Origin: Haloferax larsenii JCM 13917
GTDB taxonomy: Archaea; Halobacteriota; Halobacteria; Halobacteriales; Haloferacaceae
NCBI RefSeq assembly: GCF_000336955.1
Contig: NZ_AOLI01000012.1
Location: 74,358 to 138,357, forward strand
DNA length: 64,000 nt
Reading direction: 5' to 3'
Below, piece by piece: positions 35,751-47,872 of this stretch. Position numbers and translations under genes: made by a program. Position 1 is the first letter of the stretch; each line of letters begins with the position of its first letter. The notes under the pieces were generated by a model, which worked only from the letters and a program-made list of their open reading frames with translations, was not told the DNA's origin and made no database searches.

Positions 35751-36197
35751 ATGAGCGACGAGGGCGACCGAACGACCGTCCAAACCTACGTGCCGTCCCA
35801 CCAGAAAGACATCTGGAAGGAACACGCCGACCAACTCGGGATGAGCCAGAGCGAATTTGTCAGAACCATGGTACAGGCAGGACGGGCAAATTTCGACGTT
35901 CCTGAGAGAGGCGATGAAGCGACCACAACCCCAGGGGTCGACGGGGCGAAAACACCTCTTCAGAACGGTGGTTCGAATCAGGACAAAAGTGATAGAAATA
36001 ATGGTGGGCTCTCGGACCGTGTCGTCGACGCACTAGAAGCCCAATCGTATCAGTCGTGGGACGACCTCGTTTCGACGCTCACCGAGAACATCGAAGACCG
36101 ACTCGAATCGACCCTCCAAGAGCTCCAGTCGTCGGGGAGAGTCGTGTACAGTGGTCGCCATGGCGGGTACACCTTAGCGGAGGACGATGGCCGCTGA
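35751..36197 (+). CDS. RHH-like / DUF5805 protein preceding a recombinase
   Basis: A 148-residue protein with two parts. Residues 7-45 look like a ribbon-helix-helix or similar DNA-binding unit (VQTYVPSHQKDIWKEHADQL, MSQSEFVRTMVQAG). A Gly/Asn/Thr-rich linker follows, then a C-terminal winged-helix-like block (LSDRVVDALEAQSYQSWDDL to ELQSSGRVVYSGRHGGYTLA). The gene overlaps the recombinase start by 11 bases, so the two are probably translated together. I infer that it is an accessory DNA-binding or directionality factor. The ATG at 35751 is used; a further in-frame upstream start gives a non-acidic extension. Confidence 0.72.
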   Translation: MSDEGDRTTVQTYVPSHQKDIWKEHADQLGMSQSEFVRTMVQAGRANFDVPERGDEATTTPGVDGAKTPLQNGGSNQDKSDRNNGGLSDRVVDALEAQSYQSWDDLVSTLTENIEDRLESTLQELQSSGRVVYSGRHGGYTLAEDDGR

Positions 36198-37236
36198 GCA
36201 ACCGTCCGAAGTCGAGGACGCCGTCGGGTACTTCCTCCAGGATATGACCTATCACGGAAAGTCCGACCGAACCCGCGATGCGTACGAGCGCGTCCTCCGG
36301 GAGTTCGAAGCGTTCCTCGGGAACCCATCGCAAAATCCCACCGGGTCGGCGACGGCGGTCGAAGACGCGAGCCACCGCGACTGCATGGCGTGGGTGCACA
36401 CCCTCCGAAATCGTGACGTCGCACCAAGTACGGTCGCGACGTACGCCTCCTATCTACACCGATTCTACGCATATATGGCCCAAATCGGCGTCTTCGACTC
36501 GAACCCGATGAGCCTCGTCGTCGAGGAGATGGACGAGCGAATCGACACCAACCCGGCGCGAAGGGAGGTTTCGGTGCCCGAGATGCGGGGGTTCGTCCGC
36601 CAGATACGGCATCCACTGGACCACGCACTGGTCGTCACGCTCCTCAAGACGGGGATGCGTGTCGGCGAACTCTGTAACCTCGACCTTCGCGACCTCTCAC
36701 TCTCGGTCGATGAACCGCTCGCCGATGTATCGACTCGGGCGGCACTCGACGGTCGCGGCCCGTCGATATACGTCTCCGCAGAGCCGAGTGTTGGAGCGAC
36801 CTCGAACGGTGAGGAGCGAACGGCCTCCAACAAACGAAAGCGCTCGACGGTCGTCCCCGTCGACGACGAATTAGAGACGGTGCTGCTGCGTTGGCTCGCG
36901 ATTCGGCCCGATACGACCTCGCCTGCGGAACCGCTGTTTCTCGGCACCGCATCCGGGTGGGGAACGCGACTGACGCCGGACGCAGTCCACCACGTCGTCA
37001 CCGCTCGCGCCGCCGATTTCGGGTGGTATCGCAAAGGTGGCGACCGAGAAGAGAACGTCACACCCCACTACTTTCGGCACTTCTTCACGACGCACCTCCG
37101 AGACCGAACCGGTGACAGGGGTATCGTCAAGTACCTCCGTGGCGACGTCGGCGGAGACATCATCGACACCTACACCCACAATTGGGGCGATAGAGTGCGC
37201 GAAACGTACGAATCGAACATTTATTCACTACTCTAA
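36187..37236 (+). CDS. tyrosine recombinase / site-specific integrase
   Basis: A 349-residue tyrosine recombinase. The SAM-like core-binding domain covers about residues 10-110 (YFLQDMTYHGKSDRTRDAYE). The catalytic part has the Arg in LLKTGMRVGELCNL, a Lys in KRKRSTVVPVDDEL, the box II HxxR in TPHYFRHFFTTHL and the nucleophile Tyr in IDTYTHNWGD. At the site of the usual GH, the sequence reads LRGDVGG, so that histidine is missing. It cuts and rejoins DNA; its target site is not identified, and no tRNA gene is next to it. Confidence 0.88.
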   Translation: MAAEQPSEVEDAVGYFLQDMTYHGKSDRTRDAYERVLREFEAFLGNPSQNPTGSATAVEDASHRDCMAWVHTLRNRDVAPSTVATYASYLHRFYAYMAQIGVFDSNPMSLVVEEMDERIDTNPARREVSVPEMRGFVRQIRHPLDHALVVTLLKTGMRVGELCNLDLRDLSLSVDEPLADVSTRAALDGRGPSIYVSAEPSVGATSNGEERTASNKRKRSTVVPVDDELETVLLRWLAIRPDTTSPAEPLFLGTASGWGTRLTPDAVHHVVTARAADFGWYRKGGDREENVTPHYFRHFFTTHLRDRTGDRGIVKYLRGDVGGDIIDTYTHNWGDRVRETYESNIYSLL

Positions 37237-37334
37237 GTTGTGAATACTCTGTCTGCATGCCAATAGATAAATTGTATGTCGCTATATCCAATTGTTGGTT
37301 GGTGGGGTTCGCGACTGCGGAGGAAACGTAGAAA

Positions 37335-37358
37335 TGGGGTGTTCGACATCACACCCCA
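37335..37358. other. perfect inverted repeat between recombinase and HEAT-repeat gene
   Basis: TGGGGTGT and ACACCCCA are exact complements, separated by the eight bases TCGACATC, so an 8-bp stem can form. There is no T-run after it, so it is not an obvious terminator. It lies 99 bases beyond the recombinase stop and 53 bases before the HEAT-protein start, so an operator, a recombination site or an RNA hairpin are all possible. Confidence 0.6.
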
Positions 37359-37410
37359 AACCATCGGATTCATTGTAGACGGGAAATATTCCTGACATAC
37401 CGAACTGCCG

Positions 37411-38424
37411 ATGGAAGACGCCAGACAGTCATCTTCAGTCGATTTCCTTACCTCGCTCATTACCGCTGGCGAGTACGGTCAGGTAGTCGAGTCGCTGGAA
37501 GAGTTGGAAGCAGCGACACCCAAAACGCGGAAGCGCACCCTTCGGACGCTCCGAAGCCTTGCAGACGAACAGGCGGGTGTGTTCGACGGCGTCGTTCCGG
37601 CACTCACTCCATTTCTGACCGATGCCGAACGGTCTGTCAGGTTGACGACCGCGAGGCTGCTCGTCACTATCGCAGAATCGAATCCGAACGCAGTCGTCAC
37701 GGTCGCCGAACCGGTTGCAGCCCGTCTCGCAGACGAAGACGAATTCTACTACGTGCGGGCCCGCGCTGCCGAAGTCCTCGGGTACGTTGCACTCGAATAC
37801 CCCGACAAGGTCAGTTCACCGGAGGTCCTCGCCGACCTCCGCGTCGGCCTGTCGTTCGACAAATCCGAAGTCAAAGAGAAACTGGCGAAAGCGATAGAAT
37901 ACGTCGCCGTGGGGAATCCAGAGCGACTTCGCCACCACGTTTCGAGACTCACCGAGCACCTCGACGACGAGAACGAACTCGTTCGATACCACCTCACGAC
38001 AGCACTCGTCGCAGTCGGAACCGAACACCCAGAGCGCCTCAGCGGTGTCACAGCCGCGCTCGCGGAGCGACTGGGTGACGAGAACGCTCACGTCAGAGGC
38101 CGGGCCGCCGAAGCCCTCGGTGTGCTTGCTCGTGAGGGAGTCTACGAGGGGTCGTCGCTGGAGACGACGCTCGAAGCACCCGACCGCGACGATGACTCGT
38201 TCGTCGGCGACCGTGTGCAGTTCGCTCTCGACGCGGTACGAGAAAGTGAGACACTGGAAAGTGACTGTGACGAGTTCGGAACCATCGAGTCCGTACGAAG
38301 GACGACGAGTGAAGCCGTCGATGCGATTCGTTCACCCGAGAGTGACGAAGAATGCCCTCATTGCGGCGTCGCGTTGCCGGAATCCGGGCCGCCGATGTGT
38401 CCGCACTGTGGCGCACCGCGATGA
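37411..38424 (+). CDS. HEAT-repeat protein with C-terminal zinc ribbon
   Basis: A 337-residue protein built mainly from HEAT/ARM-like helical repeats (AAEVLGYVALEYPDKV; LTTALVAVGTEHPERL; AAEALGVLAREGVYEG), with loops such as RSVRLTTARLLV. The last 30 residues hold a zinc ribbon with four cysteines: CPHCGVALPES then CPHCGAPR. Such proteins act as scaffolds. A GAAATATTC element about 26 bases before the ATG indicates a leaderless transcript. No neighbour defines its partner. Confidence 0.8.
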   Translation: MEDARQSSSVDFLTSLITAGEYGQVVESLEELEAATPKTRKRTLRTLRSLADEQAGVFDGVVPALTPFLTDAERSVRLTTARLLVTIAESNPNAVVTVAEPVAARLADEDEFYYVRARAAEVLGYVALEYPDKVSSPEVLADLRVGLSFDKSEVKEKLAKAIEYVAVGNPERLRHHVSRLTEHLDDENELVRYHLTTALVAVGTEHPERLSGVTAALAERLGDENAHVRGRAAEALGVLAREGVYEGSSLETTLEAPDRDDDSFVGDRVQFALDAVRESETLESDCDEFGTIESVRRTTSEAVDAIRSPESDEECPHCGVALPESGPPMCPHCGAPR

Positions 38425-38432
38425 GTTCGCGT

Positions 38433-38449
38433 TTTTGGTTGGCCTAAAA
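38433..38449. promoter_or_regulatory. DtxR-type operator 1 (distal iron box)
   Basis: TTTTGG-TTGG-CCTAAA is a 6-4-6 inverted repeat with one mismatch to the arm TTTAGG/CCTAAA. It lies 55 to 39 bases upstream of the ATG at 38488, just outside the TATA element (ACTATAC, about 38459-38465). Archaeal iron regulators of the DtxR/SirR/Idr group bind this kind of box, so it is read as an operator for iron-dependent control. Confidence 0.7.
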
Positions 38450-38469
38450 TCCATAAGAACTATACATTG

Positions 38470-38485
38470 TTTAGGTCAGCCTAAA
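38470..38485. promoter_or_regulatory. DtxR-type operator 2 (proximal iron box over the start)
   Basis: TTTAGG-TCAG-CCTAAA is an exact 6-4-6 inverted repeat ending two bases before the ATG at 38488. It lies between the TATA element and the start, so a bound regulator would cover the transcription start. With operator 1 it brackets the promoter. Together they strongly suggest repression in high iron of the following gene. Confidence 0.78.
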
Positions 38486-38487
38486 AC

Positions 38488-39726
38488 ATGGAGTGCAGTT
38501 CCAACGACGAGAAGGCGCCGACACGGCGTGACTACGTGAAGTACGGCGGTGCAGTCCTCACAGGAGGGCTTCTCGCTGGCTGTACGAGCGAAGGAGAACA
38601 GGCGACGACGGAGGGGACGGGTACCACCACAGCGGCGTCCACCGAGGCTACGGCTGAAGACGAATCGTATTCAGTACGCATGGCCCCGATGGGAGACGTC
38701 GAGTTCGACTCGGTGCCGGAGAGTGTGTTCACGATACTGAACCACCACACCGACATGGTGCTCGCGCTCGGCCGGGGAAACTCGGTCAACGCACTGCACG
38801 GGCCGGGCTACATCCAATCGCTGTACCAGAAGCTGACACACCATCTCGACGGCGTCTCCATCGACTGGGACGGACTGTACTCCTCGTGGCCACCGTCGAA
38901 AGAGAAGTTGTACGAACTGGACAGCGACGTCCACCTCGCCGACCCAGCGAAGGTAGCGACGGCAGAAGGCTGGGATGAAGACGCTCTCACCGAAATCGAG
39001 CGCAACGTCGGTCCGTGGTTCGGCAACACACTCAGCGGGAGCCACACGGCGCCACCCGAGGGCTGGGCCGACGACTACGAGTACTATCCTCTCTGGGAAA
39101 TCTTCGGCAAGGTCGCTCAGGTCTTTCAGGAGACCCAGCGGTACGAGGCACTCGCTTCCGTCCGCGACTCGATGCTGACCCACATCGAAGAGCACCTTCC
39201 ACCCGAAGGCGAGCGCCCGAGCGCCGCGCTGGTGCTGTTCTCCACGTCTGACGACCGCATCTGGGGGTACAAGATGAACCACCCGGGCTACTACGCCGCG
39301 CACACTCGACCGCTCGGTGCCACAGACGCACTGTCAGCGGCCGTCGGGCCGGGGTACGAGGACGATGGCCGGAACATCACACTGGATTACGAACTCCTCC
39401 TCGAAGCCGACCCGGACGTATTGCTCGTCCTCGGCCCGATGTCGGAGTACCACAACATCGACGAAATCAGAACCTCGCTCGAAAACCACCAGGTCGCGGG
39501 GGAAATCACTGCTGTCGAAGAAGGCCGCGTCTACACCCAAGGAGCGCGGCGACAGGGTCCGATTCTCAATCTGTTCCAGACCGAGATGGCCGCAAAGCAG
39601 CTCTATCCGGACGAGTTCGGTGCGTGGCCCGGCTACGTCGATGGAGAGCCGTACCCGGACATCCCGGAAGAAGAACAACTGTTCGACCGAACGCGAGTCG
39701 CGGATATCGTCAACGGCGATATCTAA
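38488..39726 (+). CDS. iron-siderophore-type ABC substrate-binding lipoprotein
   Basis: A 412-residue exported lipoprotein. MECSSNDEKAPTRRDYVKYGG is a twin-arginine-like start, and LAGCTS is the lipobox, followed by a Thr/Ala-rich linker. The body has the FecB/FepB-type two-lobe plan with a long middle helix; LEADPDVLLVLGPMSEYHNI fits the second lobe. The preceding region has two DtxR boxes, which supports a role in iron or siderophore uptake. No permease or ATPase gene follows, so it would have to use a transporter encoded elsewhere. Confidence 0.82.
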   Translation: MECSSNDEKAPTRRDYVKYGGAVLTGGLLAGCTSEGEQATTEGTGTTTAASTEATAEDESYSVRMAPMGDVEFDSVPESVFTILNHHTDMVLALGRGNSVNALHGPGYIQSLYQKLTHHLDGVSIDWDGLYSSWPPSKEKLYELDSDVHLADPAKVATAEGWDEDALTEIERNVGPWFGNTLSGSHTAPPEGWADDYEYYPLWEIFGKVAQVFQETQRYEALASVRDSMLTHIEEHLPPEGERPSAALVLFSTSDDRIWGYKMNHPGYYAAHTRPLGATDALSAAVGPGYEDDGRNITLDYELLLEADPDVLLVLGPMSEYHNIDEIRTSLENHQVAGEITAVEEGRVYTQGARRQGPILNLFQTEMAAKQLYPDEFGAWPGYVDGEPYPDIPEEEQLFDRTRVADIVNGDI

Positions 39727-40258
39727 CCGAGTCACGAGTCCCGCCTTCCACAGCGACCCCGGCGTGCGCACCCTGGTCGCTGTGTGAAAGCTCGCAGAAA
39801 GCCCGTTCGGGCGAACAAGCGACGTTCGGCTCACCCATCGGTCGTCGGTTCGGAGTCTACCCAACTCCGAGGCGACCGAGGTCGTCTGTTCGATAGTCCA
39901 CGAGCTTTCGAAGACGTCCCCTATCGCTCGAACAACGGACGAGCACCTCGCGGGAGTCCGTGATAGTCCATGCGAAATCGAGACACAGCGGCGACCTATG
40001 TGTCAATATACTTGGTGGTTTTTGAAGGCGTGCATGTCAATTTGTTTTCAACGTTTTTGGAATCTGGCAATCTCAGCTAGTAGCTCCTCACTCGGCCAGC
40101 CACACGGTCGATAACCGGAGCTACAACTGTCTGTGAAACCGAATCTCGAATATTCTCACATCACTGCCGGGAGAGATTGTTTCAGAATACCACCAGCGCA
40201 TACCAACCGTTCAAGTTATATTCTAGACAACGGTATATGGTTCGCCAGTTGATACATC
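39727..40258. other. 532-base gap upstream of the giant surface protein
   Basis: No open frame here looks like a halophile gene. A short perfect hairpin GCCCGTTCGGGC lies at 39801-39812, about 75 bases beyond the binding-protein stop. The right part becomes AT-rich, with TATATTC near 40215-40222 and GGTATATGG near 40231-40238; the latter is about 26 bases before the ATG at 40259 and is the probable TATA element. I see no RNA gene. Confidence 0.55.
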
Positions 40259-43200
40259 ATGAATAATGATAATCGGATAGATTGGAAGCTCGTTTTCACG
40301 CTACTAATAGTTGTTTCGTCCACAGCCACTTTTGCTGGTTTTTACCCGACCGCAGTCGGTGCAACGCCAGAGTATCAGCACCGAATCGCGGGCGGAGACA
40401 TACAAGAAACTCAGTCACTCGCCGGACTTGCAAGGCTCGCCGTGGTGGACGGGCCGGATATCGTATATAGTTCCGCGTCCGTGACACCCGACACACTCTA
40501 CACAGGGAGTGCCATCAACGCCACTGTCACCGTCGAGAACACGGGGAACTCCCAACAGTCCTACAACGCGACCGTGACCGTCGACGGGTCGGTCGTCGCC
40601 TCCAAGACAGGGAGCCTGAACGCAGGCGAGACGACGACCGTTTCGTTCACGAAGACGCTCTGGGACACCGGTGACCGCGACGTCTCGGTTGGAGGACTCG
40701 CCAGCCAAACGGTGACAGTCCAATCGGCGAACGCGAACTTCCACGGTGGGCAGGGGAACCCCGGGTACTATCCAGACCAGTCGGGACCGACCTCGACGCC
40801 CACTGAACTCTGGAATATGACTGACGGAACGCCGATGGTGATGCAACCGACAATCGTCGGCGACACGCTCTATTTTGCCTTCCACGATGGCGGAAAACTC
40901 TACGCGGTCGACCCAACGACTGGTGAGGAGAAGTGGAACGCAACACCGGGTGGGTCCTCCGGGTCGACGTGGACGACACCCGCGTACGCCAACGGTGTAC
41001 TCTTCCTCGGCTCGAACGACTACAAACTCCACGCCATCAACGCGACTGATGGAACCGAACTGTGGAACTACTCGACGCAGACTAACGTCCGGTCTGCACC
41101 CGCAGTCGTCGATGGCGTCGTCTACTTCGGCAGCAACGACGGCAACATGACTGCGGTGAATGCGAGTACTGGCGAGGAACTGTGGTACCACACGCTGTCC
41201 AAGCCCTTTCTCGTTGAATCCAATCCCGCGGTCGTCGATGGGGTCGTCTACTTCGGTGCAGACGACGACAACGTCACGGCGCTGAACGCCACTACCGGCC
41301 AGAGAATCTGGAACTATACGGCTATGGACGAGATACAATCCGACGCGACCGTCGCCAACAACACTGTCTTCATCGGCAGCGATAGCACGTCAGGGACGAC
41401 AAGTGGAGACGGACAAGTCTACGCCCTGAACGCGACTGACGGGTCGCTTCGGTGGAATTACACTATGACTGGAGACGTCGACGGGAGCCCGGTCTACGCC
41501 GACGGAATCCTCTACGCTGGCAGTCGCGGCGGCGACCTCGTCGCACTGAATGCGGCCGACGGAACGAAGGTGTGGAACGTTTCGAGAAGCGACTTCCGCG
41601 GTGCGCCTGTCGTCGCCGGCAACGTCCTCTACATCTCCGATTTCGGAAGCGGAACGGTCTACGCGTTCAATACGAACGATGGAAGCGAACTGTGGCAGTA
41701 CGACTCGCCGACAGCGAATCTCTACCCGACGCCTCTCGCGTGGAACGGTACCCTCTACTACGGCTCTGGCAGCCACTTCTACGCCATCGAGGAGCCCGCA
41801 CCGACGGTTTCGAACGTGAACGCGACCAACCCGTCCGGCCAGAACGTGACGGTTACGTTCGATTCGACCGAATCGCTGTTCGACATCGCGGTCTCGATCA
41901 GCGGGCCGGAGTCCGCGACGCTCACCGAGAGTGACTTCACAGAGACCGGCAGTGGCCCGTACACCTACACGGCCACGTACGAAGGAAGCTCAGACGGGAC
42001 CTACACTGCGACGGTCGACACCGCGGCGAACACGAAAGCAGAGGACGGCGCGAACGGAGAGTCCGACAGCGTCCTCGTCGATACGACCGCCCCGACCGCT
42101 GACGCCGGCACGAACCAGACACTCCCGCTCGGAAGCTGGGTGACATTCGATGCGAGCGGTTCGACTGACACGAACACCGTGTCGAGCTACGTGTGGGACT
42201 TCGGCGACGGAACCACCGCGTCTGGCGCAGTCTACAACCACACCTACCGAGCAGTCGGGACCTACACGGCGACCGTCACTGTCACCGACCAAAGCGGGAA
42301 CACGGACACAGACACAGTCGTCGTGACTGTCGAACAGTCGAACGCGATGTTCCACGGAAGCCTCTCGAACCTCGGATACTACCCGAACGAGACGGGCCCA
42401 ACGTCTGCACCCATCGAGGCGTGGAATATCACGGACGGAACGCCGATGGTGATGCAACCGACAATCGTCGGCGACACGCTCTATTTCGCCTTCCACGATG
42501 GCGGGAAGCTCTACGCGGTCGACCCAACGACTGGTGAGGAGAAGTGGAACGCGACGCCCGGTGGCAGTTCCGGGTCAACGTGGACGACACCCGCGTACGC
42601 CAATGGCGTGCTCTTCCTTGGCTCGAACGACTACAAACTCCACGCCATCAATGCGACTGATGGGTCCGAACTCTGGAATTACTCGACGCAAACCAACGTC
42701 CGGTCTGCACCAGCAGTCGTCGACGGCGTCGTCTACTTCGGCAGCAACGACGGCAACATGACCGCGCTGAACGCGAGTACTGGCGAGGAACTGTGGTACC
42801 ACACGCTGTCTCAGCCTGTGCTCGTCGAGTCAAACCCTGCGGTCGTTGACGGCGTCGTCTACTTCGGGGCCGACGACGACAACGTCACGGCGCTGAACGC
42901 CACCACCGGCCAGAAAATCTGGAACTACACGGCCGTGGACGAGATTCAATCTGACGCGACTGTCGCCAACGACACCGTCTTCATCGGCAGCGATAGCACG
43001 TCAGGGACGACAAGCGGAGACGGGCAAGTCTACGCCCTGAACGCGACTGACGGGTCGCTGCGATGGAATTACACTATGACCGGAGACGTCGACGGGAGCC
43101 CGGTCTACGCCGATGGCACGCTCTACGCAGGCAGTCGTGGCGGCGACCTCGTCGCACTCGACGCCGTAGACGGGAGCAAACTCTGGAACGTTTCGGGAAG

Positions 43201-46200
43201 CGACTTCCGCGGTGCGCCTGTCGTCGCTGGCGACGTCCTCTACATCTCCGACTTCGGAAATGGAACTGTCCACGCCTTCAACGCGACCGACGGAACCGAA
43301 CTGTGGCAGTACGACTCGCCGACAGCGAACCTCTACCCGACGCCTCTCCCGTGGAACGGCACACTCTACTACGGCTCTGTCAGCCACTTCTACGCCCTCA
43401 AAGAGCCGGGCGTGTCGAACTTCTCCGTCTCGAACCCATCGAGTCAGAACGTGACCGTCACGTTCGACACCCACGACCAAATCGTCGATATCTCGATGAC
43501 ACTCAGCGGTGCCGAGTCAGCAACGCTCACCGAGAACGACTTCACTGAGATGGACAACGGCGACGGAACCTACACCTACGGCGCAAACTACGTCGGGAAT
43601 TCCGACGGCACCTACACCGGGACGCTCACCGTGGCAAACGACAGCAGTGGCGACAACAAGGCGTCCGGAAATTCCGACAGCGTCCTCGTCGACACCACGC
43701 CGCCGGCGATTTCGAACTTCAGTGCCACGGAGTCGTCGGGGCAGAACGTGACTATCACGTTCAATTCGAGCGAGCAACTGGGAGGCACACAGGTATCTCT
43801 CAGCGGGCCAGAGTGGACGACGCTCTCGCTCGGAAACTTCACCGAGACCGGCAGTGGTCCGTACACCTACACGGCCACGTACGACGGTTCCAGCAACGGG
43901 ACCTACACTGCGACGCTCGATTCGGCGATGGACGCCGCCAACAACGACGGTGCGTCCAGTGAGTCCGCAAGCGTCTCGATTGGGACCGCGGTCGTTTCGA
44001 GCAGTATCGAGTACGTGTCGGGGTCACAGCCAGACATGAGCAACGTCACGCTGGACGCGTGGTTCAGCAGTGGACTGCTCCAACTGCAAGCGAAGAACGC
44101 CACGGCGAACACCTCGGACTTCAGCACCGAGGCCGACTACGAACTCGCCGGACTCGGAGCCGACTCGACGACAGTCCTCCGAACGAACGTGACCGTCCAG
44201 GGATACACCCCGCGGGCACTCATCGGGAGCGCCCACGACGTGAACTGGACGCGGACGCAGCACCAAAACGGCACGTGGACGCTCTCGATTACCGGCACGC
44301 CAGCCGAAGTGCAGTCGTTCTTCTACGCGAACGGCTCCTCGCCGACTTCGTGGCCGGGAACCATCCAAGCGAACGAGTCGCAGACGGCCGCGCTCACCTT
44401 CGCCGTCGACGACCTCGACGTGCTGTCGAGTACGCACCGCGAGCGACTCAACGGCTCGGTCATGGTGACTGACGCACAGGAGTTCGGGTCGCCGCAGTAC
44501 AACACCTCTGGGACGAACGACAAGGTCGAACTGCGCGTGAAGGCACCGCACTTCACGACGAGCGGCGCGAACAACACCGGCTTCTTCGAGGCCTTCCTGC
44601 CGCAGAAACTCCTCGACGACTGGGGGGTGAACGCGAACCAACTCGCCGGTGAACTGAACGGTGCCTCCCGGACGACGACCATCACCGCCGTCTCGGGCGG
44701 TGGCGCATACGTCGAGTTCGGCATCCACTACTCCGAGGGCGACGCCGCGGTCACTGTCGACAGCACCGCACCCACGGCAGATGCCGGGTTGGACCAGACA
44801 GTCGACGAAGACACCGTGGTGCAGTTCAACGCGAGTAATTCCACCGACAACGTCGCTATCGACTCCTACGAGTGGGACTTCGGCGACGGCTCGAATGCCA
44901 CCGGCGAAAACGTCTCGCACACCTACGCCCAGCCCGGTACCTACACCGTGACCGTCGAGACCGCTGACGCCGCCGGACACAACGACACCGACACCCTCGT
45001 CGTCACAGTCAACGATACGACCGCCCCGACTGCGGACGCGGGGAGCGACCAGACTATCAGCAAGAACAGACCAGTACAGTTCAATGCGAGTGACTCCACC
45101 GACAACGTCGGTATCGTCAACTACCGGTGGGACTACGGCGATGGAAACGGTGCAACCGGCGAGAGTGCCGCGCACGCATACAACACTCCCGGGACCTACA
45201 CCGTCACGCTCACCACCACTGACGCCGCCGGAAACACCGCAAACGACACCGTCGTCGTGACCGTCGTCGACCCGGACAATAATCGGTCCGGCAGTGGAAG
45301 CACCGGGAGCGACGATTCCGACGATGATTCGGAATCAGAACGTTCGGACACGACCGCACCGGAAACCGACGATTCGAAGGACGAACCGGCCGGTGAGAAG
45401 AGCGGAACGAAGGTGCGCGTCGAACGCAAGTCGAGTTCGGACAGGGAAAAGAGCGAATCCGCAGACGTGAAAGTCGAGAACGTGACACCCGGCGTCACCG
45501 TCGAAATCACGTTCGACGAGACGGCGGACTCCGACACCGGAGACCGCGCGAACAACACGTCGAGTACCGACCTCGAAAACAGCACGGCGACGGGGAACCA
45601 GACCAGTACCGGCAACGAGACGGCCGCCGACGCCGGGAACGAAACCGCGAACGCGACCGACCGCCAGCGTCCGGCGAACATCTCCGTGGCGAACATGAAG
45701 ATGAACGTCAGTCGGTCTGGTGACTTCTCGTTGAACGTCACGACGAGAGAGGTTGCGTCTAATTCGAATTCGGACAGCAACGGGCAAGAGACGACGGACC
45801 AAGCCGACTCGACTGGGCCGTCGAACACGACGCGCGGTATGTCCGGCACCGACCGCAAGTTCCTCGAAGAGACCGGCGCGCGACCGGCAGGGTACGTTAT
45901 CGTCGACCACGACGACCTCTCAGACGACAACATCGACGACGTGACGTTCACGTTCCGCGTGAGCAAGGCGTACCTGAGTACGACCGGCGTGGATGCGGAT
46001 TCGGTCGCACTGTACCGCAACGAGACGGTTCGGTGGAACAAACTGTCGACGAGACTCGTCGGAGAGACGGAGACGCAGTACGTCTTCGAGGCCAAGTCGC
46101 CCGGGCTCTCTGAGTTCGTCATCGGCGCGACGGCCCCGGCATTCGAGGTGTCCGAGACGGCGCTGTCGCACGACGAGATGGGTGTCGGCGACGATGCAAC

Positions 46201-46570
46201 CGTCGACGTGACGCTCTCGAACCTCGGCGGTGCAGCGGGCAGTTACACGCTCGAACTGCGCAGCGATGGAACGACGATTGCCACCGAGACCGTGGCACTC
46301 GATGCTGGCGAAGAACGCACCGTCTCGCTCGATGCAGCGTTCGAATCGGCTGGAACGTACGAACTGACCGTCGACGGAGAATCCGTCGGGAAACTGCGCG
46401 TCGTGACCGAGCAAACCGAACAGCAGGCTGGGGCGACGGCTGTCGAAAACCCGGACTCGTCCGACGAGACGAACGACGGCGGAAACGGACCATTCCTCGT
46501 GCTGCTCCTGCTCGTCGCGCTCGCTGGAGTCTCTATCTACGTCCTCTTCGGACGAGGTGACGGCGAGTAA
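40259..46570 (+). CDS. giant surface protein with duplicated PQQ propellers and three PKD domains
   Basis: A 2103-residue exported protein. Residues 1-36 are a signal sequence. About 70-155 is CARDB-like. About 160-513 and 697-1050 are two PQQ-type beta-propellers, nearly identical and exactly 537 residues apart. Ig-like beta-sandwiches lie near 515-605, 1050-1145 and 1150-1240. PKD domains with WDFGDG or WDYGDG are near 612-690, 1503-1585 and 1587-1672. A Ser/Asp-rich linker, a PGF-pre-PGF-like region (about 1740-1960), a CARDB-like domain (about 1963-2050) and a final membrane segment (PFLVLLLLVALAGVSIYVLFG) complete it. There is no PGF-CTERM sorting motif. The protein is anchored at the C-terminus and displayed outside. 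Role may be adhesion or wall structure. Confidence 0.9.
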   Translation: MNNDNRIDWKLVFTLLIVVSSTATFAGFYPTAVGATPEYQHRIAGGDIQETQSLAGLARLAVVDGPDIVYSSASVTPDTLYTGSAINATVTVENTGNSQQSYNATVTVDGSVVASKTGSLNAGETTTVSFTKTLWDTGDRDVSVGGLASQTVTVQSANANFHGGQGNPGYYPDQSGPTSTPTELWNMTDGTPMVMQPTIVGDTLYFAFHDGGKLYAVDPTTGEEKWNATPGGSSGSTWTTPAYANGVLFLGSNDYKLHAINATDGTELWNYSTQTNVRSAPAVVDGVVYFGSNDGNMTAVNASTGEELWYHTLSKPFLVESNPAVVDGVVYFGADDDNVTALNATTGQRIWNYTAMDEIQSDATVANNTVFIGSDSTSGTTSGDGQVYALNATDGSLRWNYTMTGDVDGSPVYADGILYAGSRGGDLVALNAADGTKVWNVSRSDFRGAPVVAGNVLYISDFGSGTVYAFNTNDGSELWQYDSPTANLYPTPLAWNGTLYYGSGSHFYAIEEPAPTVSNVNATNPSGQNVTVTFDSTESLFDIAVSISGPESATLTESDFTETGSGPYTYTATYEGSSDGTYTATVDTAANTKAEDGANGESDSVLVDTTAPTADAGTNQTLPLGSWVTFDASGSTDTNTVSSYVWDFGDGTTASGAVYNHTYRAVGTYTATVTVTDQSGNTDTDTVVVTVEQSNAMFHGSLSNLGYYPNETGPTSAPIEAWNITDGTPMVMQPTIVGDTLYFAFHDGGKLYAVDPTTGEEKWNATPGGSSGSTWTTPAYANGVLFLGSNDYKLHAINATDGSELWNYSTQTNVRSAPAVVDGVVYFGSNDGNMTALNASTGEELWYHTLSQPVLVESNPAVVDGVVYFGADDDNVTALNATTGQKIWNYTAVDEIQSDATVANDTVFIGSDSTSGTTSGDGQVYALNATDGSLRWNYTMTGDVDGSPVYADGTLYAGSRGGDLVALDAVDGSKLWNVSGSDFRGAPVVAGDVLYISDFGNGTVHAFNATDGTELWQYDSPTANLYPTPLPWNGTLYYGSVSHFYALKEPGVSNFSVSNPSSQNVTVTFDTHDQIVDISMTLSGAESATLTENDFTEMDNGDGTYTYGANYVGNSDGTYTGTLTVANDSSGDNKASGNSDSVLVDTTPPAISNFSATESSGQNVTITFNSSEQLGGTQVSLSGPEWTTLSLGNFTETGSGPYTYTATYDGSSNGTYTATLDSAMDAANNDGASSESASVSIGTAVVSSSIEYVSGSQPDMSNVTLDAWFSSGLLQLQAKNATANTSDFSTEADYELAGLGADSTTVLRTNVTVQGYTPRALIGSAHDVNWTRTQHQNGTWTLSITGTPAEVQSFFYANGSSPTSWPGTIQANESQTAALTFAVDDLDVLSSTHRERLNGSVMVTDAQEFGSPQYNTSGTNDKVELRVKAPHFTTSGANNTGFFEAFLPQKLLDDWGVNANQLAGELNGASRTTTITAVSGGGAYVEFGIHYSEGDAAVTVDSTAPTADAGLDQTVDEDTVVQFNASNSTDNVAIDSYEWDFGDGSNATGENVSHTYAQPGTYTVTVETADAAGHNDTDTLVVTVNDTTAPTADAGSDQTISKNRPVQFNASDSTDNVGIVNYRWDYGDGNGATGESAAHAYNTPGTYTVTLTTTDAAGNTANDTVVVTVVDPDNNRSGSGSTGSDDSDDDSESERSDTTAPETDDSKDEPAGEKSGTKVRVERKSSSDREKSESADVKVENVTPGVTVEITFDETADSDTGDRANNTSSTDLENSTATGNQTSTGNETAADAGNETANATDRQRPANISVANMKMNVSRSGDFSLNVTTREVASNSNSDSNGQETTDQADSTGPSNTTRGMSGTDRKFLEETGARPAGYVIVDHDDLSDDNIDDVTFTFRVSKAYLSTTGVDADSVALYRNETVRWNKLSTRLVGETETQYVFEAKSPGLSEFVIGATAPAFEVSETALSHDEMGVGDDATVDVTLSNLGGAAGSYTLELRSDGTTIATETVALDAGEERTVSLDAAFESAGTYELTVDGESVGKLRVVTEQTEQQAGATAVENPDSSDETNDGGNGPFLVLLLLVALAGVSIYVLFGRGDGE
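40737..41797 (+). repeat. copy 1 of the duplicated PQQ-propeller segment
   Basis: This segment codes for the first propeller and is repeated 1611 bases later at 42348-43408 with long stretches identical at the base level, for example the stretch from about 40826 that recurs at 42437. The offset of 1611 is a multiple of three, so the copies stay in frame. The intervening Ig-like and PKD domains belong to the repeating unit. Confidence 0.85.
42348..43408 (+). repeat. copy 2 of the duplicated PQQ-propeller segment
   Basis: The second copy of the propeller starts with SNAMFHGSLSNLGYYPNETG, against SANANFHGGQGNPGYYPDQSG in copy 1, then becomes almost identical (TDGTPMVMQPTIVGDTLYF). Differences are mostly third-position changes and single residues such as TGQRIW against TGQKIW. 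This indicates either a recent duplication or continuing gene conversion. Confidence 0.85.
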
Positions 46571-46578
46571 CTGGGAAA

Positions 46579-46738
46579 CTGACCACCCCATCCCGGCCAC
46601 AGGCCACCCCGGCCACAGGCCAACCCGGTCGCAGCCCACCCCGGCCACAGGCCAACCCGGTCACAACCCATCCCGACCACAGGCCATCCCGACCACAGGC
46701 CATCCCGACCACAGGCCATCCCGACCACAGGCCAACCC
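46579..46738. repeat. 16-bp tandem repeat (minisatellite), about ten units
   Basis: Ten 16-base units with a fixed period fill the gap between the convergent genes. The consensus is GACCACAGGCCATCCC; units at 46675, 46691 and 46707 are identical, and units nearer the giant gene drift (GGCCACAGGCCACCCC, GGTCACAACCCATCCC). Because 16 is not a multiple of three, the array is not coding. It lies just after the giant gene stop and ends two bases before the next stop. Confidence 0.95.
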
Positions 46739-46740
46739 GT

Positions 46741-47133
46741 TCAATACGTCCTGAACGAGGCCGACCCGATAGCGACTCTGACCAGCACGTTTTCCGACCA
46801 CGCCGACTCCGAAGCCCCGTATTTCTCGTTGATGCGTCTCGTCGCGTCGCGTGTGGCGTCATCGTCGTCGACGACAGTCGCCGTGCCGAGCATCGAGACC
46901 ATCCACTGCGCCCGCCCCTCCACGTCCTTCTGAATCGAGAGGGCGACCCGCGGATTCTCCCGGACGTTCGCGAGTTTTCGGCCGGTTGTGACGAGTTCGA
47001 CAACCGCGTCGGACTCGTCGTAGACGTACCACACCGGCGCGACGTGGGGGCGGCCGCCGCGACACGTCGCCAGATGCGCCATCAGCGGTTCGCTCGTGAC
47101 GAGTCTCGCCGCCTCGTCGGGAACAGTTCCCAT
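46741..47133 (-). CDS. pyridoxamine 5'-phosphate oxidase-like flavin protein
   Basis: A 130-residue split-barrel protein of the PPOX-like flavin-binding family. Blocks MAHLATCRGGRPHVAPVWYVYDESD and ARPVEL-type strands (VELVTTGRKLANVRENPRVALSI) are typical FMN-binding segments. Members reduce or bind F420/FMN and heme-like compounds. The ATG at 47133 is used; an upstream start adds 14 residues unlike the family. Its stop touches the minisatellite. Confidence 0.82.
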   Translation of the reverse strand: MGTVPDEAARLVTSEPLMAHLATCRGGRPHVAPVWYVYDESDAVVELVTTGRKLANVRENPRVALSIQKDVEGRAQWMVSMLGTATVVDDDDATRDATRRINEKYGASESAWSENVLVRVAIGSASFRTY

Positions 47134-47257
47134 GAGGAGTGAGACGGCTCTGGGCGGCAAAGCTGTGTGCGCCACGAGGTACCAGACAGAGAACTACAAC
47201 GACCGTTTGACTCTTGCACAACCCTTTATCAGTCGAACGAGAACGTGGCGCGAGACC

Positions 47258-47872
47258 GTGAGTTCGTTGCTACCGTTGAAACCCGCCGCCGAATCGATTC
47301 ACGACCGGGAGATAGACCCGCTTCTCGTCGCACTCGACGACCCCGCCGCCGACGACATCCTCTCGGCACTCTCGTCGTCGACTGCGAGAGCTATCCTCAC
47401 CACCATCTACGAGGAACCGCGTCCGGCCTCCGAGTTAGCGTCCGCGCTCGACACCACGCTACAGACCGTGAGCTACCACCTCGAACGCCTCGAAGACGCC
47501 GACTTGGTCGAGGAGGTGACGACGTGGCTCTCCGCGCAGGGGCGCGAGATGGCAGTCTACGGGCCGACGAACACGGCCGTCGTCCTGTTTGCCGGGGCTG
47601 AGAAGACCGAGCCGCGGCTCTCGTCTGGACTGCGAACGCTCGTCGGCGGACTCGCTGGGACCGTCGTCGCGAGCCTCGCCGTCCAAGCGGTTTGGATGAC
47701 GCGGCAACCGCCGGTTCGAACGTTCACTGCGCGGGCCGAGCCCAAGCCGACGACGCCGACGACGTTCCTCTCGGCATATCTGGACGGGCCGGGACTGGTC
47801 GTTCTCGCAGTCGGCGCGGCCCTCGTCCTCGCAGTGGCCCTTGCGATGGTGTGGACTCAAAGACGCGTTTGA
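47258..47872 (+). CDS. membrane-bound HTH (ArsR-type) transcriptional regulator
   Basis: A 204-residue protein with an N-terminal winged helix-turn-helix (DDPAADDILSALSSSTARAIL, TLQTVSYHLERLEDADLVEEV) of the ArsR/HTH-20 type and two C-terminal membrane segments (VGGLAGTVVASLAVQAVWM; VLAVGAALVLAVALAMVW). A GTG at 47258 is used, because CCTTTATC about 30 bases upstream is the TATA element and the transcript would be leaderless; the longer open frame overlaps the divergent flavin-protein start. It probably senses a signal at the membrane. Confidence 0.78.
   Translation: MSSLLPLKPAAESIHDREIDPLLVALDDPAADDILSALSSSTARAILTTIYEEPRPASELASALDTTLQTVSYHLERLEDADLVEEVTTWLSAQGREMAVYGPTNTAVVLFAGAEKTEPRLSSGLRTLVGGLAGTVVASLAVQAVWMTRQPPVRTFTARAEPKPTTPTTFLSAYLDGPGLVVLAVGAALVLAVALAMVWTQRRV

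Follow-up and report, generated by a model that had tools for sequence, protein, structure and literature searches.

A 64,000-nucleotide stretch of the Haloferax larsenii JCM 13917 genome (contig NZ_AOLI01000012.1, positions 74,358 to 138,357; hereafter the window) carries a gene for a large predicted surface protein with two closely similar beta-propeller heads, P1 and P2. We are fairly confident in the following explanation. The two heads of this stalk-and-head protein are an old pair, they have exchanged sequence in patches within the gene, and the second head probably came with a cassette. The parts of the protein needed to follow the argument are listed here, in window coordinates; Ig denotes immunoglobulin-like domains.

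40259-46570, forward strand: two-propeller surface protein gene, a single open reading frame of 2103 residues
40439-40729, forward strand: CARDB-like N-terminal domain, residues 61-157, recognized by eye (no Pfam match)
40802-41794, forward strand: propeller P1, residues 182-512
41798-42085, forward strand: Ig1, residues 514-609
42080-42334, forward strand: PKD1 (PF18911), residues 608-692, between the propellers, with an LGSW motif
42413-43405, forward strand: propeller P2, residues 719-1049
43406-43696, forward strand: Ig2, residues 1050-1146
43700-43987, forward strand: Ig3, residues 1148-1243
43979-44743, forward strand: domain X, residues 1241-1495 (255 residues), without a Pfam family

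P1 and P2 have 331 residues each and lie 537 residues apart; their identity is 92% at the protein level and 89% at the DNA level. Direct repeats within the gene recur at a spacing of 1611 nucleotides, or 537 codons. Codons 184-512 match codons 721-1049 at 89.7% of nucleotides; 65 codons differ silently and 25 by a replacement, and the nonsynonymous (dN) and synonymous (dS) divergences are 0.04 and 0.40. The initial annotation, which had described a 2103-residue frame with in-frame repeats and mostly silent changes, is confirmed on these points. The next-best propeller of the same genome is only about 29% identical, so the likeness of P1 and P2 is far above that of any two PQQ-type propellers. 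The dN/dS ratio between the copies, a check that the annotation had proposed, is about 0.1. Purifying selection acts on both propellers, and both heads are therefore kept functional.

High identity is confined to about residues 182-512 and drops at the propeller edges. Ig1 and Ig2, the domains on the 3' side of each propeller, are 59% identical with a dS of about 1.0. The preceding domains differ in kind, CARDB-like before P1 and PKD before P2. Downstream of P2, two Ig domains and the 255-residue domain X stand before the next PKD. The proposal that the repeating unit comprises propeller, Ig and PKD domains is therefore not tenable.

For comparison, 15 Haloferax genomes and overlapping sets of 170 genomes of the family and 392 of the order were used. 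The nearest is H. elongans (G009, NZ_AOLK01000018.1). It carries a matching two-headed gene (L119:8461-15282, 2273 residues), whose propellers again lie 537 residues apart and whose neighbouring genes are the same. Because this structure occurs there independently, an assembly artefact is unlikely. Among all the genomes compared, two close propellers are present only in these two. Eight other Haloferax genomes contain a single-propeller relative and no propeller relative was found in five of the 15. Single-propeller relatives are scattered over few genera, some of them on megaplasmids. With a close propeller in 10 of 15 Haloferax genomes and in 7 of the 95 genera sampled in the order, "conserved halophile gene" was too strong a description. 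A change of protein length had also been anticipated. The proteins of the two species do differ by 170 residues, but two stalk PKD domains account for this entirely and the propellers contribute nothing.

Between the window and H. elongans, dS is 0.16-0.21 in the flanking genes, 0.11-0.37 in the rest of the gene, and 0.42 and 0.50 for the orthologous propellers. Copy-to-copy propeller dS is 0.41 in the window and 0.52 in H. elongans, two to three times the species background. Nucleotide identities of the propellers are 89.4/86.6% within a genome, 88.2/86.4% between orthologues and 75-79% with the single-headed Haloferax genes. By the shared architecture and by these dS values, the two-headed form is older than the separation of H. 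larsenii and H. elongans. An intrinsically faster silent rate of the propeller was considered and rejected: in single-headed genes, the dS of the propeller does not stand out from that of the other parts. The excess divergence of the orthologous propellers is expected if old, diverged copies overwrite each other patchily.

A pattern that fits such overwriting is visible when the four propellers are compared site by site. The sites that split them two against two comprise 34 of concerted type, grouping the copies of one genome, 25 of orthologous type and 4 crossed. They are not evenly distributed. At nucleotides 273-684 of the propeller unit every such site groups the copies of one genome, except one that is crossed; from nucleotide 745 to the end most group the orthologues. 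The central parts correspond to the following segments.

41066-41536, forward strand: central part of P1 (unit nucleotides 265-735), where all sites that distinguish orthologous from concerted grouping are of concerted type
42677-43147, forward strand: the counterpart in P2, with the same site type

In the tree of unit nucleotides 265-735, P1 and P2 of the window are sisters (support 100/99) and the orthologue grouping is rejected (approximately unbiased (AU) test, p 0.0005). In the tree of nucleotides 745-993, P1 of the window is sister to P1 of H. elongans (100/98) and the paralogue grouping is rejected (AU p 1e-5). Concerted evolution is thus found in the central part only, and the 3' part shows the reverse. 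Permutation supports the clustering. At the level of single sites, the 9 runs have P < 5e-5, and the longest concerted run has P 1e-5 by codon and 0.016 with neighbouring codons merged. Third positions account for 17 of the 34 concerted sites. At the orthologue-type sites that can be polarised, the ancestral base is in P2 in 13 of 15 cases, which makes P1 the more derived copy. In H. elongans, the linker ahead of P2 reads QSANANFHG, as it does ahead of P1.

Several observations weigh against this picture. The limits of the two tree regions were set after the sites had been viewed. When neighbouring sites are merged into events, the number of runs loses its significance (P 0.30). Identical tracts between P1 and P2 of the window reach only 53 nucleotides, which points to short or old conversions. 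Within the central part, dS between the two copies of the window is 0.26-0.48, above the level that wholesale conversion after the species split would leave, which makes external donors possible. On balance P1 and P2 are in partial concerted evolution: they are mosaics, homogenised in patches. The mechanism would most simply be intragenic gene conversion, with one head as donor for the other. Gene conversion between chromosome copies is known to be efficient in Haloferax, where it has been measured in the laboratory (PMC11276520), and concerted evolution of paralogues has been described in prokaryotes (PMC6053082). As in those prokaryotic cases, the copies within a genome are closer than orthologues, here in part of the sequence. 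Unlike those paralogues, P1 and P2 are domains within a single protein, and their homogenisation is partial and patchy. Of the two events that the initial annotation had offered, gene conversion is thus supported, by the paralogue grouping of the centre together with the orthologue grouping of the 3' part.

The domains around P2 bear on how the second head arose. PKD1, which comes immediately before P2, clusters with the N-terminal PKDs found immediately ahead of the single propeller in the relatives from G100 and G065, genomes of another genus (96/94). An LGS[WF] motif is present in only 4 of 55 PKDs, and these are the members of this group. Among the Ig domains, Ig1 falls with those that stand first in other members of the family, Ig2 with internal Ig domains of the G080 protein, and Ig3 with the one that closes the Ig array ahead of domain X in the G080, G388 and G444 proteins. 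Ig1 is 75% identical to Ig1 of the G444 protein and 59% to Ig2. These groupings favour the joining of a cassette over a simple tandem duplication. Two AU tests temper this: with p 0.065 for the competing position of PKD1 and p 0.061 for a sister relation of Ig1 and Ig2, both stay above 0.05. We conclude, with moderate support, that the second head was probably acquired as a cassette of PKD and propeller.

In the strongest competitor, an older duplication within the gene copied only the propeller and placed it between an existing PKD and Ig; gene conversion followed, and no foreign cassette was involved. The similarity is indeed limited to the propeller, the four propellers form one clade over their whole length (99/99), and the AU tests for PKD1 and Ig are only near significance. 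Against this, PKD1 pairs with the PKD directly before the G100/G065 propeller and their shared motif is in no other PKD. We regard this competitor as a minority possibility, to be taken seriously but less probable than the cassette.

Somewhat less probable again is that the mosaic stems from homologous recombination, through mating or megaplasmids, with alleles that had diverged in other strains or species. All four propellers, central part included, differ beyond the species background, which leaves room for outside donors. In addition, relatives are located on megaplasmids, and VARTIG proteins of Thermococcales diversify between strains (PMC8416519). But the centre groups the two copies of one genome, so outside donors would themselves need prior homogenisation, and no donor was found among the 170 family and 392 order genomes. 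Exchange within the gene therefore remains our preferred source of the mosaic.

A recent tandem duplication of the propeller-Ig-PKD unit in the lineage of the window, the other event offered by the initial annotation, is very improbable. In its favour are the high identity at a fixed 537-residue offset, the mostly silent changes, and the single clade that the four propellers form against the single-headed Haloferax genes. It fails in the comparison with relatives, since H. elongans is two-headed with the same spacing and the dS of the copies (0.41-0.52) exceeds the species background (0.16-0.21); the 59% identity of Ig1 and Ig2 and the unlike flanking domains also oppose it. Finally, likeness kept by protein-level selection alone, with no exchange, agrees with the low dN/dS but is the least credible reading, given that half of the concerted sites are third positions, that these sites cluster in one stretch and that the orthologue grouping is rejected there.

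We therefore return to the old pair with patchy internal exchange. In this scheme, a related single-headed gene would have supplied a PKD-propeller cassette that joined a CARDB-propeller-Ig gene before the species split. Since then the propellers have swapped sequence patch by patch, for which intragenic gene conversion is the simplest mechanism, and purifying selection has retained both. The product would be a large protein of stalk-and-head build, N-glycosylated and anchored in the membrane, that carries a pair of propellers as heads.

As to its location, the gene is part of the cargo of an insertion hotspot. The inserted segment spans approximately 37237-47100, between a tyrosine-recombinase gene (36187-37236) and a helix-turn-helix (HTH) gene (47096-47872). 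The distance between these two genes is 9.8 kb in the window against about 0.1-0.8 kb in four other Haloferax genomes, G013, G006, G011 and G004, and in G012 the same site holds other cargo with a related binding-protein gene. It is this near-empty or differently filled site in relatives that identifies the hotspot. Positional orthology with the Haloferax single-propeller gene is rejected by synteny, the family occupying three or more places in Haloferax. No useful synteny was found between the flanks of the window and the loci of other genera. Foreign composition was also considered, but the GC content of the gene (0.615, against 0.626 for the window) is uninformative. Within the cargo, a small reverse-strand frame (46741-47175) resembles, by eye, a pyridoxamine-phosphate-oxidase-type protein. 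In H. elongans, about 2 kb is added ahead of the HEAT-repeat gene, and most of the binding-protein gene that the window has at 38488-39726 is missing.

The remaining features of the gene and its 3' flank are as follows.

40259-40363, forward strand: N-terminal signal peptide, residues 1-35, seen by eye as a hydrophobic stretch with an AVGA cleavage-like site
44759-45271, forward strand: stalk of PKD2 and PKD3; four PKDs at this place in H. elongans
45275-45808, forward strand: acidic linker rich in Ser and Asp, residues 1673-1850
45920-46123, forward strand: PGF-pre-PGF domain, residues 1888-1955
46490-46549, forward strand: C-terminal hydrophobic helix, residues 2078-2097, a probable membrane anchor
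46584-46743, forward strand: 16-bp tandem array of about ten copies, directly 3' of the stop codon

A Pfam search of the protein returned PQQ_2 and three PKD domains. The PQQ/BamB-type propeller family PF13360 scores 328 bits (cut-off 27.6) and the PGF-pre-PGF domain TIGR04213 scores 52.2 bits (cut-off 28). Eight tryptophans at a spacing of about 42 residues make eight blades likely for P1. The protein is neither BamB nor a PQQ-dependent dehydrogenase. The BamB equivalog TIGR03300 reaches 290.7 bits (cut-off 285.2) only by summing the two propellers, and single-propeller relatives score 149-194 bits, below that cut-off; TIGR03075 gives 176 bits where 480 are required. Domain X is present in 20 of 147 halobacterial genomes, in frames of about 900 to 15,000 residues, one of which (L157) resembles a subtilisin-type protease. 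The 16-bp array is unique to this spot in the genome; its counterpart in H. elongans is shorter and degenerate.

The single-propeller PKD/Ig proteins of Haloferax (H. gibbonsii, H. prahovense, H. massiliensis and others) have 1235-1407 residues. They share with the window protein the N-terminal domain, the propeller (75-82% protein identity), Ig1, the PKD stalk, the PGF-pre-PGF domain and the C-terminal helix. They differ in having one propeller, in lacking Ig2, Ig3 and domain X, and in genomic location. In G001 the relative (L121:9210-13399) is split within the PKD stalk into overlapping frames of 833 and 639 codons, through a frameshift or a sequencing error. The G014 gene is broken over two contig ends (L122 and L123) within PKD repeats, probably an assembly break. 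The proteins of G080, G100, G065, G388 and G444 also have a propeller, an Ig array, domain X (63-75%), the PGF-pre-PGF domain and the C-terminal helix, but one propeller only. Those of G100 and G065 start with the PKD ahead of the propeller; the CARDB-like domain is common to the Haloferax single-propeller genes and those of G080, G388 and G444.

The repeat sequence and Trp pattern are those of BamB/PQQ-repeat propellers (PF13360; PDB 3hxj; the designed "Cake" propellers). Unlike BamB and the quinoproteins, the window protein is an extracellular multidomain archaeal protein, neither a Bam-complex lipoprotein nor a quinoprotein dehydrogenase. Methanosarcina surface-layer proteins probably have a propeller of a different type. 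They likewise combine propeller heads with PKD domains at the cell surface (Jing et al. 2002, cited in PMC2447325).

The protein contains 78 N-glycosylation sequons where 32.5 are expected, is acidic and has no cysteine. These features fit a secreted haloarchaeal glycoprotein. Substrates of archaeosortase A end in a PGF motif, a hydrophobic stretch and positive residues (PMC7157517). The window protein has the hydrophobic stretch and a PGF-pre-PGF domain but neither a PGF motif nor a PGF-CTERM model match, so it is not regarded as such a substrate. The absence of this signal had been noted correctly as a fact, but not as a special trait, since it extends to five relatives and hence to all six members tested. 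The family is thus likely to rely on a plain transmembrane anchor. The architecture, with propeller heads carried by Ig/PKD stalks and a C-terminal helix, and the sequons suggest a role in binding or adhesion. More speculatively, and with low confidence, exchange between its own heads could make a cassette-built protein of this kind produce mosaic propellers, and the mobile gene would then be a small generator of diversity for the recognition head.

Near-identity of two domains within one protein is easily mistaken for recent duplication. Here, one sister genome reveals the opposite, an old pair kept alike patchily. The gene thereby gives a naturally occurring example on which gene conversion between domains can be tested in Haloferax, within a modular and patchily distributed family of surface proteins that is carried in insertion hotspots and on megaplasmids.

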